Positions 18,197 through 22,454 of a stretch of 64,000 nucleotides of DNA are shown piece after piece; positions within the stretch are counted from its first letter, which is position 1; each line of letters opens with the position of its first letter. The DNA comes from a virus. The DNA lies in IMG/VR virus record IMGVR_UViG_3300042907_001325, positions 1-64,000 of that record; one strand, given 5' to 3'. The position numbers were made by a program, and so were the translations under genes. The notes under the pieces are model-generated. The model was not told the DNA's origin. It saw nothing but the letters and a program-made list of their open reading frames with translations, and did not search any database.

Positions 18197-18439
18197 TTAA
18201 ACTTTTTTATATGAATATTGAGTTGCAATGTTGGTAGTAAAAAATTTACCTTGAGATTCTGCCAATCTGAATTTTGTATAGACTTGGTGAGGTACTTTGT
18301 CGTACTTGTATTTGGCTCCGTTATTGAATTCTACGACCAACTCTTTAGATTCTGTGTCGTATTCACTTGATTTAATATTTGAAGATTTAATTTCGTTTTT
18401 AATCTTCGTCCCATCAATTACTTCTTTGATTATTCCCAT
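18197..18439 (-). CDS. KTSC-domain protein
   Basis: 80 aa. SSEYDTESKELVVEFNNGA, then KYKYDKVPHQVYTKF and SQGKFF match the small KTSC domain (named after lysyl-tRNA synthetase C-terminal context), common in phages and bacteria. It overlaps the upstream gene by 26 bases. Binding role unknown. Confidence 0.8.
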   Translation of the reverse strand: MGIIKEVIDGTKIKNEIKSSNIKSSEYDTESKELVVEFNNGAKYKYDKVPHQVYTKFRLAESQGKFFTTNIATQYSYKKV

Positions 18440-18731
18440 TTTTTTTAAGTGGTGTTAGTTCATTTATTTTTTCTAATAATGGTGTTAGATAAGCACTTAA
18501 CTCATTAAAATTCATATCAAAACCATAAGATTTAACGTCATTAAGTAAAGAGTTTCTATCATTATCAAATTTGTGAAATAAATTCATCATTTTTCTAGTA
18601 TAATGTGGTGGTTTTTCTAGTTGGTCTTCACTAAACCCCAACTCTTGGAAATGTTGTCTTAATTCAAGGTATGTATCAAGTAGTTGTCTTAATGTAAATG
18701 ACTCTTCCAAGAACTTTTCATATAGTTTCAT
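18414..18731 (-). CDS. Small helical protein with T4 internal-protein-like leader
   Basis: 105 aa. It begins MKLYEKFLEES, which follows the pattern M-K-x-Y-x-x-F-(I/L)-x-E-(A/S) of the T4 internal-protein capsid-targeting sequence, with a predicted prohead-protease cut at FLEE|S. The remainder is helical and basic (PPHYTRKMMNLFHKF) and ends in a basic tail. TATTTAT lies at 18736-18742 (minus strand), 5 bases from the start. I infer a head-packaged protein; function unknown. Confidence 0.7.
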   Translation of the reverse strand: MKLYEKFLEESFTLRQLLDTYLELRQHFQELGFSEDQLEKPPHYTRKMMNLFHKFDNDRNSLLNDVKSYGFDMNFNELSAYLTPLLEKINELTPLKKNGNNQRSN

Positions 18732-18775: not shown

Positions 18776-19180
18776 TTAGGATTTTAATTTTCTTAATTGG
18801 TCTCTAATCTCGATGGACTTTTCAAAGTTTTGTTCTTTGATTGATTCCTTTAATTCCAATTCAAGATTTTCAATCATCTCTTTATTGGTTCCCAAGTTTT
18901 TAATTTGGTCTCTTAACTTAACCGCTTCTTCAAAATCTTCCATTTCAATCGCTCTTTCAAGTTTAATATTAAGGTATTCTTCCTTACTCATTTCTTTTGG
19001 ATTATCATTATCTAAATCCGATAAATCAAATACTTTTACATAACGAGTATATTTGTAATTCCCATCAGGAGATTCAAAAGTATTGGTCGTCCAATCTTGT
19101 TTATTAAAATCTTCCATGATTTTGTCGTAACGAGCCATTAGGTCGTCAATGTTAAAATTAAATTTTCTTCTGTGAAACAT
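18776..19180 (-). CDS. Tandem UVR-motif protein (possible Clp adaptor)
   Basis: 134 aa. Two UVR-like helical hairpins are visible: LERAIEMEDFEEAVKLRDQI (about 79-98) and LKESIKEQNFEKSIEIRDQL (about 111-130). UVR motifs mediate contacts in UvrB-UvrC and in ClpC-McsA. The N-terminal 65 residues are unrecognised and there are no zinc-finger Cys, so it is not a full McsA. It is transcribed divergently from the phage ClpC-like unfoldase, which has a UVR insert of its own. I infer an adaptor or regulator of that unfoldase. Confidence 0.7.
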   Translation of the reverse strand: MFHRRKFNFNIDDLMARYDKIMEDFNKQDWTTNTFESPDGNYKYTRYVKVFDLSDLDNDNPKEMSKEEYLNIKLERAIEMEDFEEAVKLRDQIKNLGTNKEMIENLELELKESIKEQNFEKSIEIRDQLRKLKS

Positions 19181-19271
19181 ATTTTTTTGTTTTTTTAAAT
19201 TTATTTATTATCTTTGTTCTTGTCAAGTATCATACCGATGATAAATATAAGATATTATTTTATATAATCCA

Positions 19272-19314
19272 TGACATTATGTCAGGTTAATAAAATTATT
19301 ATGACAATTTGTCA
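19272..19314. promoter_or_regulatory. Paired palindromic operator TGACA-N3-TGTCA
   Basis: Two perfect 5-bp-arm palindromes, at 19272-19284 (TGACATTATGTCA) and 19302-19314 (TGACAATTTGTCA), have centres 30 bp apart, about three helical turns. They lie in the 188-bp divergent region between the UVR protein and the ClpC-like gene, 55 bases upstream of the latter. This is the geometry of a cooperative dimeric repressor. No matching regulator is recognised in the window, so it may be a host stress regulator. Confidence 0.6.
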
Positions 19315-19368
19315 AAATATTTGGATATGTATGAAATTTGACCGTAATTTGTAAAACAATTAAAAAAT

Positions 19369-21384
19369 ATGAACGACTTAATGGACGACGACGACAAAAT
19401 GATGAACAAAAAAACTAAATCATCTGGAGAATCTAACACACCTGTGTTAGATAATTTTAGTAGAGACTTAATGAAACTAGCGGAAGCTGGAAAACTTGAC
19501 CCCGTTATTGGTCGTGATAGAGAAATCTTAAGGATTGCTCAAATTCTTTCTCGTAGAAAGAAAAATAACCCGATTATACTCGGAGAACCTGGTTGTGGTA
19601 AAACCGCACTTGTTGAAGGATTGGCAATCAAGATTGTAAATGGTGATTGTCCCCGTAACTTGGTAGATAAACGTATTGTTAATCTTGACCTTACATCAGT
19701 TGTTGCCGGTACAAAGTATCGTGGACAATTTGAAGAAAGAATGAAAGTGATTATCGAAGAACTTCAATCAAACCCAAACATCATTGTATTCATTGATGAG
19801 ATTCACACATTGGTTGGTTCAGGAAATTCTTCAGGTTCAATGGATGGTTCAAATATCTTTAAACCCGCATTGGCACGTGGGGAAATTCAATGTATCGGGG
19901 CAACTACATTAGATGAGTTCCGTAAAAACATTGAAAAAGATGGAGCATTGGAACGTAGATTCCAAAAGGTAATCGTTGAACCATCATCAATTGATGAAAC
20001 AATTCAAATCCTTAAGAATGTTCGTGACAAATACGAAGATTTCCACAAGGTGAATTACAGCGATGAGGTAATTGAGACTTGTGTTAAGTTGGCAGACCGT
20101 TATATCACAGACCGTGAGTTCCCTGATAAAGCATTTGACATTTTGGATGAGGTTGGAGCAAGAATGCAGACCGAACTAAAGATACCTGAAGCAATTGAGG
20201 AGTTAAAAAGACAAGCAGCAGAAATCAAACTTCAAAAAATGGAAGTGGTTAAAAAACAAAACTACGAACAAGCTGCAGAGCTTCGTGACAAAGAAAAAAA
20301 ATTGTTACTGAAGTTGGAGCAAGAAAAAATTAAGTTTGATGAAAAGTTGTCCAAAGAAAAACAACTCATCTTATTGGAACATGTTTATGATGTTGTATCA
20401 AACATGACAAAAATCCCTGTAAATAAAATGAGTGTGGATGATACTAAATCTTTGTTGGACTTGGACAAAACTTTGATTGACAAAGTTATCGGTCAAAACA
20501 ATGCGGTAGTTAAGATTGCAAAAGCAATCAAAAGAAATCGTTTGGGTATTAAAGACCCTAATCGTCCAATTGGGTCATTTGTGTTTTTAGGTTCGACAGG
20601 TGTTGGTAAGACATACCTGGCAAAACAATTGGCAAAAGAAATGTTCGGTTCCGAAGATGCTCTCATTCGTGTCGACATGTCTGAATACCAAGAGAAACAC
20701 ACAATATCCAAATTAATTGGAGCACCTCCAGGATACGTAGGTTATGAAGAAGGCGGATTGTTAACTGAGAAAGTTAAAAACAAACCTTACTCTGTAATCT
20801 TATTTGATGAGATTGAAAAAGCTCACAAAGATGTATTCACCATCCTACTTCAGGTTTTAGATGACGGTCATGTAACCGACAGTTTGGGACGTAAGATTAA
20901 CTTCAAAAATACCTTGATTATCTTGACATCAAACTTGGGGGTTAAAAAACTACAAGACTTTGGGGCTGGTATTGGTTTCTCAAGTAATTCATATAGTAAT
21001 GAAGAAGCTAAGAAACAAATGTTAATGAAGGAAATGAAAAACTTCTTCTCACCTGAGTTCATTAATCGTATTGATGATACGGTTGTATTTAACTCATTGA
21101 CTAAAGAAGACATCAAAAAGATTACCGACATTGAATTAAAGAAGTTGGTGACTCGTCTTGTAGATATGAAGTACAAAATCACATATGACGAATCTTTGGT
21201 TGAGTATTTATCAAAGATTGGATACGATGAATTGTACGGAGCTCGTCCATTGAAGAGAGCTATTCAGGATAAGGTTGAAGACCTATTGTCAGAAGAAGTT
21301 CTAACGGGTAAGATGATTGAAGGTAAGACCTATCACATCAAAGTAGTGGGTGAAAACGTGGTGGTCCAAAAAAAAGGACGATAA
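19369..21384 (+). CDS. ClpC/ClpA-type AAA+ unfoldase, N-domain-less
   Basis: 671 aa ATP-driven unfoldase. D1 has Walker A LGEPGCGKTAL (71-81), Walker B IIVFIDEIH (138-145) and arginine finger ERRF (195-198). The middle region holds a UVR motif (KKQNYEQAAELRDKEK, about 295-310) as in ClpC. D2 has Walker A GSTGVGKTYL (408-417) and Walker B VILFDEIEKAH (476-486). An IGF tripeptide (535-537) lies where ClpA/ClpC/ClpX carry the ClpP-docking loop. The usual N-terminal Clp_N substrate domain (about 150 residues) is missing and replaced by a short Asp/Lys-rich start. A phage ClpP is encoded at 36893, so the two may form a protease. Paired palindromes lie upstream and a terminator follows. Confidence 0.92.
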   Translation: MNDLMDDDDKMMNKKTKSSGESNTPVLDNFSRDLMKLAEAGKLDPVIGRDREILRIAQILSRRKKNNPIILGEPGCGKTALVEGLAIKIVNGDCPRNLVDKRIVNLDLTSVVAGTKYRGQFEERMKVIIEELQSNPNIIVFIDEIHTLVGSGNSSGSMDGSNIFKPALARGEIQCIGATTLDEFRKNIEKDGALERRFQKVIVEPSSIDETIQILKNVRDKYEDFHKVNYSDEVIETCVKLADRYITDREFPDKAFDILDEVGARMQTELKIPEAIEELKRQAAEIKLQKMEVVKKQNYEQAAELRDKEKKLLLKLEQEKIKFDEKLSKEKQLILLEHVYDVVSNMTKIPVNKMSVDDTKSLLDLDKTLIDKVIGQNNAVVKIAKAIKRNRLGIKDPNRPIGSFVFLGSTGVGKTYLAKQLAKEMFGSEDALIRVDMSEYQEKHTISKLIGAPPGYVGYEEGGLLTEKVKNKPYSVILFDEIEKAHKDVFTILLQVLDDGHVTDSLGRKINFKNTLIILTSNLGVKKLQDFGAGIGFSSNSYSNEEAKKQMLMKEMKNFFSPEFINRIDDTVVFNSLTKEDIKKITDIELKKLVTRLVDMKYKITYDESLVEYLSKIGYDELYGARPLKRAIQDKVEDLLSEEVLTGKMIEGKTYHIKVVGENVVVQKKGR

Positions 21385-21614: not shown

Positions 21615-22454
21615 TTAAAACACTGACCGATTTCTCCAACCATGTTCAACCATTTCTTTATAGTGTAATTTATGACCAAGTTTATCAATCATTTTCTTAC
21701 CCATGTCGATACCATTAATTACGTCTTCAACAACGACGTATTCATGGGTTGTGTGATATTGGTAGTATCCAATTGAGAAGTTAATACAAGAGAAGTCAAA
21801 CTTACCTCTTAACGCATATACGTCAGTATAAGGGTGAACCATGTATCTCATTCTATTTCCCATACCTTCTGTTAATACCTCATTACAAGCATCAAAAAAT
21901 TCAGTCTCTCTGTCAAATAAAACTTGACCAAAACATTTTTCAGTAATCATCCAGTTTTCAGGTGCGTCAAATTGAATACCATATCCAACATTATCAAAAA
22001 ATGATGAATCCGCCATCATTGAACCTTTACAACCGGTTTCTTCAGATACAAAGAACGCGGCCTTTACATACGGTAATTCTTTTAATAATCTAAGACATGC
22101 AAATACACCACATTTATCATCACCACCAATACCTGTTGGTTCTCCATCATTGTCATATGCCTTATATGATAATTTAATTTCTTTTTGAGCATTTGGTAAC
22201 ATTTCCTCTCGGATATTAATATCGTTAAGTCCATGTACCGTATCCGTATGTGAAATTACACATGGGAAATAAAATCCTTCAGGAAGTTCTTTTGATTCTT
22301 GTTTTGTTGCGTAGACGTTATTATATTCGTCCACATAGTGCTCAATATTATTTTCAGTTAACCAGTTAACCAAAAACTCAACCATTCTGTCCTCGCGATA
22401 CGTTGCCGTAGGTACGCTCAAAACGGCTTTAAGTAATTCTAAATTTTGTTCCAT
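21615..22454 (-). CDS. M20-family (PepT-like) metallopeptidase
   Basis: 279 aa. M20 motifs occur in order: SHTDTVHG (H69, D71), GIGGDDKCG (D112/D113), SEETGCKGS (E138, E139), and a late THEY His. This is a co-catalytic di-zinc exopeptidase pattern. The protein is shorter than tripeptidases, with little room for the dimerisation domain. A host-type minus-7 box (TATATTTG on the minus strand, 22459-22466) lies just upstream, so expression is likely early. It may recycle peptides produced by ClpCP or host proteolysis, which is inference. Confidence 0.85.
   Translation of the reverse strand: MEQNLELLKAVLSVPTATYREDRMVEFLVNWLTENNIEHYVDEYNNVYATKQESKELPEGFYFPCVISHTDTVHGLNDINIREEMLPNAQKEIKLSYKAYDNDGEPTGIGGDDKCGVFACLRLLKELPYVKAAFFVSEETGCKGSMMADSSFFDNVGYGIQFDAPENWMITEKCFGQVLFDRETEFFDACNEVLTEGMGNRMRYMVHPYTDVYALRGKFDFSCINFSIGYYQYHTTHEYVVVEDVINGIDMGKKMIDKLGHKLHYKEMVEHGWRNRSVF

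Follow-up and report, generated by a model that had tools for sequence, protein, structure and literature searches.

Which regulator reads a pair of short palindromes placed between two divergent phage genes, and which of the two genes would it control? The question arises from a 64,000-nucleotide stretch of viral DNA (positions 1 to 64,000 of the 71,258-base IMG/VR virus record IMGVR_UViG_3300042907_001325; hereafter the window), in which a gene for a ClpB/ClpC-type AAA+ protein and a gene for a UVR-motif protein are transcribed away from a common intergenic region (Table 1). A preliminary description of this DNA had proposed that the palindromes control the Clp divergon and that a dedicated regulator, of phage or host origin, binds them.

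The divergent genes and their palindromes

The Clp protein matched the Pfam families AAA, AAA_lid_9, AAA_2, and ClpB_D2-small, with no match to Clp_N. ClpB/ClpC unfoldases combine two AAA modules with a D2-small domain, and full-length members also have an N domain. Relatives of the Clp protein in the phage record collection were less than 60% identical in 165 of 166 records, and no relative of the UVR protein was found in that collection. In a comparison of ten window proteins with PHROGs, 3 matched, to the major head, portal, and large terminase families.

Table 1. Coordinates of genes, operators, and promoter-like elements in the window
Feature	Position	Strand	Remarks
KTSC protein gene	18197-18439	-	Identity by Pfam; adjoins UVR gene with the next
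'LRQHFQELGFSEDQLEKPPHY' protein gene	18414-18731	-	Identity by reading
UVR-motif protein gene, 134 aa, two UVR stretches	18776-19180	-	Hsp20 gene at this place in other phages
TTTG-N19-TATCTTTG, second Bacteroidota-type promoter-like match toward clp	19186-19216	+	Upstream of O1 and O2
Sigma54-like -24/-12 element CGGTATGATACTTGAC (GG-N10-GA)	19222-19237	-	Reads toward UVR gene
Possible decayed third operator	19250-19262	.	12 bp from sigma54-like element; placed by arithmetic, low confidence
Operator O1 TGACATTATGTCA	19272-19284	.	34 bp upstream of sigma54-like element of UVR gene (12 bp plus about two helical turns)
Operator O2 TGACAATTTGTCA	19302-19314	.	clp ATG 54 bp downstream
TATTTGG, candidate clp -33 element	19318-19324	+	Common to one subgroup of relatives; presumed promoter type
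GTAATTTGT, candidate clp -7 element	19344-19352	+	Putative
ClpB/ClpC-type AAA+ protein gene, 671 aa, two AAA modules	19369-21384	+	Pfam
TGGTATTCAATTTGAC, second sigma54-like word	21966-21981	-	In frame with a sub-threshold M20-peptidase match

The two operators, O1 and O2, have 5-bp arms and 3-bp centres, with 30 bp from centre to centre, and both the geometry and the coordinates of the preliminary description were confirmed. The exact word TGACANNNTGTCA occurs twice in the full record, as O1 and O2 only. Words of this type with at most 1 mismatch number 7 in the window versus 2.5 expected, a count attained by 3 of 100 shuffles, and a reversed control pattern also matched once on each strand of the record, so that a single palindrome is not rare.

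CIRCE, the operator of HrcA, has the consensus TTAGCACTC-N9-GAGTGCTAA, and the CtsR box consists of tandem heptads, (A/G)GTCAAAN3(A/G)GTCAAA; both systems exert negative control, at other promoters, through operators that are short, either palindromic or repeated, and placed ahead of clp and chaperone genes. The palindromes are like these in being short operators before such genes and unlike them in sequence. Read against both consensus sequences, the intergenic sequence contained no CIRCE element and no CtsR box, its repeats being inverted and not direct, which agrees with what had been claimed earlier; a lone TTTGACC word near clp is distinct from the tandem CtsR box.

On the clp side, one phage subgroup has a TTTGG block about 5 bp past the operator and a block ending in TTTG about 20 bp further, which we take to resemble the -33/-7 promoter of Bacteroidota. 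Promoter-like matches of the TTTG-N19 type were found 17 times in the window versus 7.75 expected, with 17 reached by 1 of 100 shuffles.

Operators and sigma54-like elements across phage loci

A search with the Clp protein yielded 80 virus loci, from which L031 and L035 were dropped for a missing clp start, leaving 78 and, with the window, 79. Up to 1 mismatch was allowed when the operator was scored in the 210 bases preceding clp, and the neighbouring genes were sorted by short peptide patterns, with 7 UVR-type, 5 KTSC, and 1 Hsp20 neighbours assigned by eye and one UVR-type and one Hsp20 example confirmed by Pfam. The neighbour divergent from clp was UVR-type in 39 loci and Hsp20 in 20 loci (59 in all, the window among them). 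The operator was kept in 57 of these 59 loci against a shuffle expectation of 0.7, and in none of the 18 loci with other neighbours (KTSC in 5, 'LRxxFQREGW'-type in 10, something else in 3); with near-identical upstream regions collapsed, it was present in 44/46 versus 0/18. Because of this association with the neighbouring gene, the O1/O2 pair stands above chance, and the question raised in the preliminary description, whether related phages keep the arms, has a positive answer. In L036 and L081 the neighbour was not assignable; these loci were placed in neither group, and both have the site.

Phages without a UVR or hsp20 gene carry proteins similar to the KTSC and 'LRQHFQELGFSEDQLEKPPHY' proteins of the window directly beside clp. 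Since the window genes beyond the UVR gene thus resemble the clp neighbours of other phages, this arrangement suggests that the partner gene and the operators come and go together. The operator arms vary by one-sided changes, for example to TGACA-N3-TGACA, and neighbouring sites (46 pairs) are spaced by 20 to 22 bp in 5 pairs, 29 to 32 bp in 27, and 41 to 43 bp in 10, with 4 pairs off this ladder (13, 38, 39, and 72 bp).

We searched the same loci for a strict sigma54-like element, defined as a YGGYA-N6-TTG frame with the GG and GC/GA dinucleotides 10 bp apart. The window word CGGTATGATACTTGAC fits this -24/-12 pattern; the sigma54 consensus carries GC where the word carries GA. On the strand leading away from clp, the strict element was identified in 33 of 58 UVR/hsp20 loci, where 0.36 were expected, and in none of the 18 other loci, the count being out of 58 and not 59 because L023 also fell outside the groups. 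The strict element was missing from the divergent strand in 25 of the 58 loci, and the relaxed element too in 20, with the operator kept. Toward clp, it was found in 1 of the 58. The clearest phage target, judged by these patterns, is the UVR/hsp20 promoter, which appears to copy a module found in hosts. The conserved operators are tied to the divergon, as had been proposed; control of clp itself is left unexplained, since 57 of 58 loci lack a sigma54-like element directed at clp, and such control is plausible, less direct, and the weakest part of our reading.

Operator and element are coupled at 12 bp, or at 12 bp plus whole helical turns, and the commonest gap in phages is 12 bp, as in host dnaK. 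Across hosts and phages, the distances from operator to element show a periodicity of 10.5 bp (R = 0.89, n = 155; the distances are not independent, as the sequences share ancestry and several gaps can come from one promoter). By subset, R was 0.82 for the 83 gaps of 16 bp or more, 0.89 for host hsp20 (34 gaps), and 0.81 for phages (34 gaps); gaps of 37, 57, and 62 bp were out of phase. Sigma54 promoters need an enhancer-binding protein (EBP), and EBPs of the NtrC family combine an AAA+ Sigma54_activat domain with HTH_8, bind palindromic sites, and are placed on the same helix face relative to the -24/-12 promoter. The periodicity, with few exceptions, sets the operators on one face relative to the promoter, as for an EBP upstream activating sequence. 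The window copy of the third operator has more than 2 mismatches; its close relatives L005 and L006 have a 2-mismatch third site at -119, where a 12-bp gap to the element would put one.

Modules of operator plus element were then counted in 119 virus loci, which had been fetched for operator pairs. We identified 16 modules, and five altered element words, a control that leaves the operators in place, gave 0 each in the same loci; five shuffles also gave 0, although shuffling broke the operator pairs by which the loci were chosen. The modules precede genes for Hsp20 in 8 cases (seven by Pfam, one sharing its start with one of those), UVR-type proteins in 6 (one by Pfam, five by tblastn), a phage DnaK in 1, and a protein with no Pfam match in 1. 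The DnaK gene (L247:362-2224, minus strand), from a virus contig of 245,874 bases, codes for the full-length protein (HSP70, E 2.9e-257) and is preceded by TGACAGTATGTCA-N12-CGGTATACTTATTG, which is the module of host dnaK. The remaining protein (L281:4090-4425, plus strand; 112 aa) lies downstream of a module with a 10-bp gap.

The same operator before host heat-shock genes

Kordia zhangzhouensis was the one Flavobacteriaceae member recognised among the matches listed in a genome-wide pair scan. It carries an exact pair, 32 bp from centre to centre, that stops 86 bp short of the hsp20 start codon. Exact sites number 4 in its genome, against 2 for the reversed control: besides the pair, one lies 108 to 120 bp before dnaK, and another, apparently fortuitous, falls within the last part of a reading frame unrelated to these genes. 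A search of phage and host genomes for TGACA-N3-TGTCA pairs had been advised in the preliminary description. The phage record holds only O1 and O2 as exact words. Host pairs were rare, a relaxed class-wide scan finding them in 11 of 395 genomes versus 6 for the reversed control, and the pair was rejected as a host signature. Among the matches listed in the genome-wide scan, most were from outside Bacteroidota, including many Clostridia in which the centre differs and the spacing is 36 bp, and the Bacteroidota rows besides Kordia were L170 and L198. What is apparently a distinct operator system is seen in many Clostridia loci within L084-L201, where two TGACAC-n-GTGTCA palindromes flank a TATAAT-like word at a spacing of 36 bp.

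The useful host signature is the operator plus the sigma54 element. We scored 250-base upstream regions from a sample of Flavobacteriaceae, with expectations from Markov shuffles. The sample comprised dnaK from 30 of 31 genomes (G023 truncated), groES from 28 of 41 genomes (30 loci, two short), 20 hand-picked clpB upstreams with rule-based start codons, some of them possibly off, 25 of 30 clpC loci, and 91 hsp20 upstreams, made up of 30 loci, a further 60, and that of Kordia, taken from a longer set in which two of G063, G048, the second of G069, and one of G002 were passed over. The 13-base operator with at most 1 mismatch was present before 30/30 dnaK (0.35 expected), 25/91 hsp20 (0.95), 4/20 clpB (0.25), and 0/25 clpC genes (0.1). 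It was also scored in 24/28 groES upstreams (0.5 expected), a count inflated because terminator hairpins were included: by eye, 8 of the 24 rest solely on an upstream terminator hairpin, and 16/28 were judged hairpin-free. When up to 1 mismatch was allowed, an 11-base core, GACANNNTGTC, was identified before 19/20 clpB (1.35 expected), 52/91 hsp20 (4.5), and 2/25 clpC genes (0.55), and the exact core in 0 of 28 groES upstreams.

The strict element was found upstream of 30/30 dnaK, 54/91 hsp20, 11/20 clpB, 1/28 groES, and 0/25 clpC genes. The relaxed element was present in 14/28 groES and 20/25 clpC upstreams (3.4 expected for clpC), and is unspecific on its own because clpC has it so often and operator-free. 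Operator and element within 60 bp of each other were found for 30/30 dnaK, 28/91 hsp20, 11/20 clpB, 12/28 groES, and 1/25 clpC genes. In host dnaK, the gap to TGG is 12 to 13 bp in 27 of 30 upstreams and the operator is centred near -45; the operator directly precedes the -24 element in most dnaK upstreams, in roughly half of those of clpB, and in some of those of groES. Host clpC upstreams such as L469, L475, and L485 show a relaxed GG-N10-G element and no operator; a different activator may serve clpC, or what the relaxed pattern detects there may be a sigmaA promoter.

The exact module, with gaps of 8 to 17 bp allowed, was present in 44 of 60 Flavobacteriaceae genomes and absent from the reversed control (0), and the gap was 12 or 13 bp in all matches listed. 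The 30 family loci returned comprised 24 dnaK, 3 htpG, 2 grpE, and 1 secA, and two further listed matches without a returned locus stood before one htpG and one gene for a protein without a Pfam match. In a class-wide sample, the module was found in 11 of 90 genomes (control 0), before dnaK (3), grpE (2), hsp20 (2), thioredoxin (2), htpG (1), and a 4-fold beta flower protein (1), with seven identities by Pfam and the rest by reading. Host genes with the operator and a sigma54-like element at fixed phase are thus dnaK, grpE, htpG, hsp20, clpB, and part of groES. The thioredoxin modules come from two Bacteroidia genomes (L594 and L603) and hint at a link to thiol stress; the exact module upstream of the beta flower (Bflower) protein comes from one Bacteroidia genome (L596).

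A candidate activator and competing explanations

We searched 13 genomes for PF00158 at E<=1e-30 and assigned the proteins to types by reading: a receiver plus AAA type without HTH, an orphan AAA type with C-terminal HTH_8 (EBP-B), and a third with receiver and HTH, in one genome. Pfam was run on single examples of the first two types, and the EBP-B example matched Sigma54_activat and HTH_8, with no receiver match. At this threshold Kordia has two EBPs, of which EBP-B alone carries HTH_8 (Pfam), and in G036, G059, and G082 EBP-B was the sole PF00158 protein obtained. EBP-B was present as one copy in each of 41 of 41 family genomes, at 65 to 100% identity; in 38 of them it is encoded on the groES strand, 1.6 to 2.7 kb ahead of that gene. 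These data make EBP-B the best candidate for the activator, likely the protein that would bind the operator. It is like NtrC-family EBPs in its domain pair, palindromic operator, and same-face placement, and unlike them in the missing receiver match and in host sites centred near -45. EBP upstream activating sequences usually lie 80 to 150 bp upstream; the host dnaK sites are near -45, and the intact sites of the window would be near -66 and -96.

Sigma54 control of Flavobacterium chaperones is not new, since it has been mapped (PMC9723704) and predicted (PMC12316311). Start mapping in F. psychrophilum placed sigma54 promoters at groESL, lon, dnaK, grpE-dnaJ, htpG, and clpB, with induction recorded for blood agar, osmotic stress, plasma, and freshwater; three PF00158 proteins were described as possibly distinct activators and were left unassigned (PMC9723704). 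That regulon resembles ours in its -24/-12 promoters at chaperone genes and differs in that its main text names no operator and no specific activator (PMC9723704). 'Heat shock' is also absent from that main text (PMC9723704), and we propose heat induction on the basis of gene content. The cross-phylum prediction lists GroEL, GroES, GrpE, DnaJ, DnaK, and IbpA as sigma54-dependent, most strongly in Flavobacteriia; it differs from our analysis in being a promoter prediction, the available text giving no enhancer site or activator for chaperones (PMC12316311). The available text of the two papers makes no mention of a TGACA-N3-TGTCA operator or a named chaperone activator (PMC9723704, PMC12316311). 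Searches of an open-licence library added nothing further on host heat-shock control in Bacteroidota and turned up no report of phages using an operator plus sigma54 module. Large phages with bS21, up to 331 kb and with predicted Bacteroidetes hosts, are reported to carry folding chaperones and Clp protease; they are like the phages described here in chaperone and Clp gene content and differ in that the main text makes no use of the word 'promoter' (PMC9723584).

Taken at sequence level, the comparisons favour, with a probability of roughly three in four, the reading that phage proteostasis genes are wired to the heat-shock circuit of a presumed Bacteroidota host. The palindromes would be enhancer-type operators, copied from that circuit or in register with it. 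In the host, protein stress would activate an EBP, likely EBP-B, which would bind TGACA-N3-TGTCA and, from the same helix face, drive sigma54 RNA polymerase at dnaK, groESL, clpB, hsp20, htpG, and grpE. In the infected cell, the host EBP on the operator array would also turn on the Hsp20 or UVR partner gene divergent from clp, and the operator beside the clp promoter would probably modulate clp, which it may repress or assist. We also lean, less firmly, toward a wider proposal, in which one EBP encoded beside groESL runs Bacteroidia heat shock through phased TGACA-N3-TGTCA enhancers and large phages have captured the module for Hsp20, UVR-type/Clp, and DnaK genes. A regulator dedicated to Clp is unlikely, because host heat-shock genes share the operator and the phased element and no EBP was found in the window or in 18 related phage contigs.

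A second host heat-shock regulator, either a repressor or a non-EBP activator, might instead be layered on the sigma54 promoters, with EBP-B acting elsewhere. This explanation, which we hold to be unlikely, draws on the position of the host operators near -45, which is atypical for an EBP: where the site comes immediately before the -24 element, as in most dnaK, roughly half of the clpB, and some groES upstreams, it is nearer than usual. A 13-bp palindrome would suit other dimeric regulators as well, clp has its operator beside a sigmaA-like promoter and no sigma54 element, and in G066 only an HTH-less EBP was found in the sequence searched, yet its hsp20 (L411) has a 1-mismatch site. A repressor, however, would not need a 10.5-bp phase ladder reaching out to 54 to 75 bp, and sigma54 promoters depend on an EBP, the only HTH_8-bearing one of Kordia at E<=1e-30 being EBP-B.

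That a dedicated regulator encoded by the phage binds the palindromes, the other option of the preliminary description, would account for an operator strongly conserved in phages and bound to one gene pair. We judge it very improbable, as host heat-shock genes carry the same operator at the same spacing and our searches for a phage-encoded EBP found none. In 18 related phage contigs (two longer than 300 kb, all possibly fragments), PF00158 gave a single weak match each, of 30 to 37 bits, and in 18 of 18 this match sits in an open frame of Clp length. With the EBPs as queries, tblastn returned no match in the window and one weak match among the 80 clp loci, in the clp region of L054. Single sites are not uncommon in a record this rich in AT, and small stems could form from 5-bp arms. 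Leader RNA hairpins or chance are nevertheless scarcely tenable as explanations: the inferred starts of partner and host genes are downstream of the sites, the arms change on one side, and conservation follows the identity of the neighbouring gene; on the first two grounds the RNA hairpin was rejected.

If the host-circuit reading is true, it supplies a binding site and a candidate activator for the sigma54 control of Bacteroidota chaperones, a point that published mapping left open. Phages would then plug chaperone genes into the stress circuit of the host and not solely into a viral timing programme, and viral proteostasis would be triggered by the host's own stress alarm.

Two minor sequence features were recorded along the way. 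The second sigma54-like word of the window, TGGTATTCAATTTGAC, is probably chance, as it has no exact operator with it and 0.36 such words are expected. In the groES leaders L428, L429, and L442, a common inverted repeat, AACGCTTAAGCGTT, lies just 3' of the promoter element, and in L431 the repeat takes the form AATGCTTAAGCATT, with paired changes relative to AACGCTTAAGCGTT.
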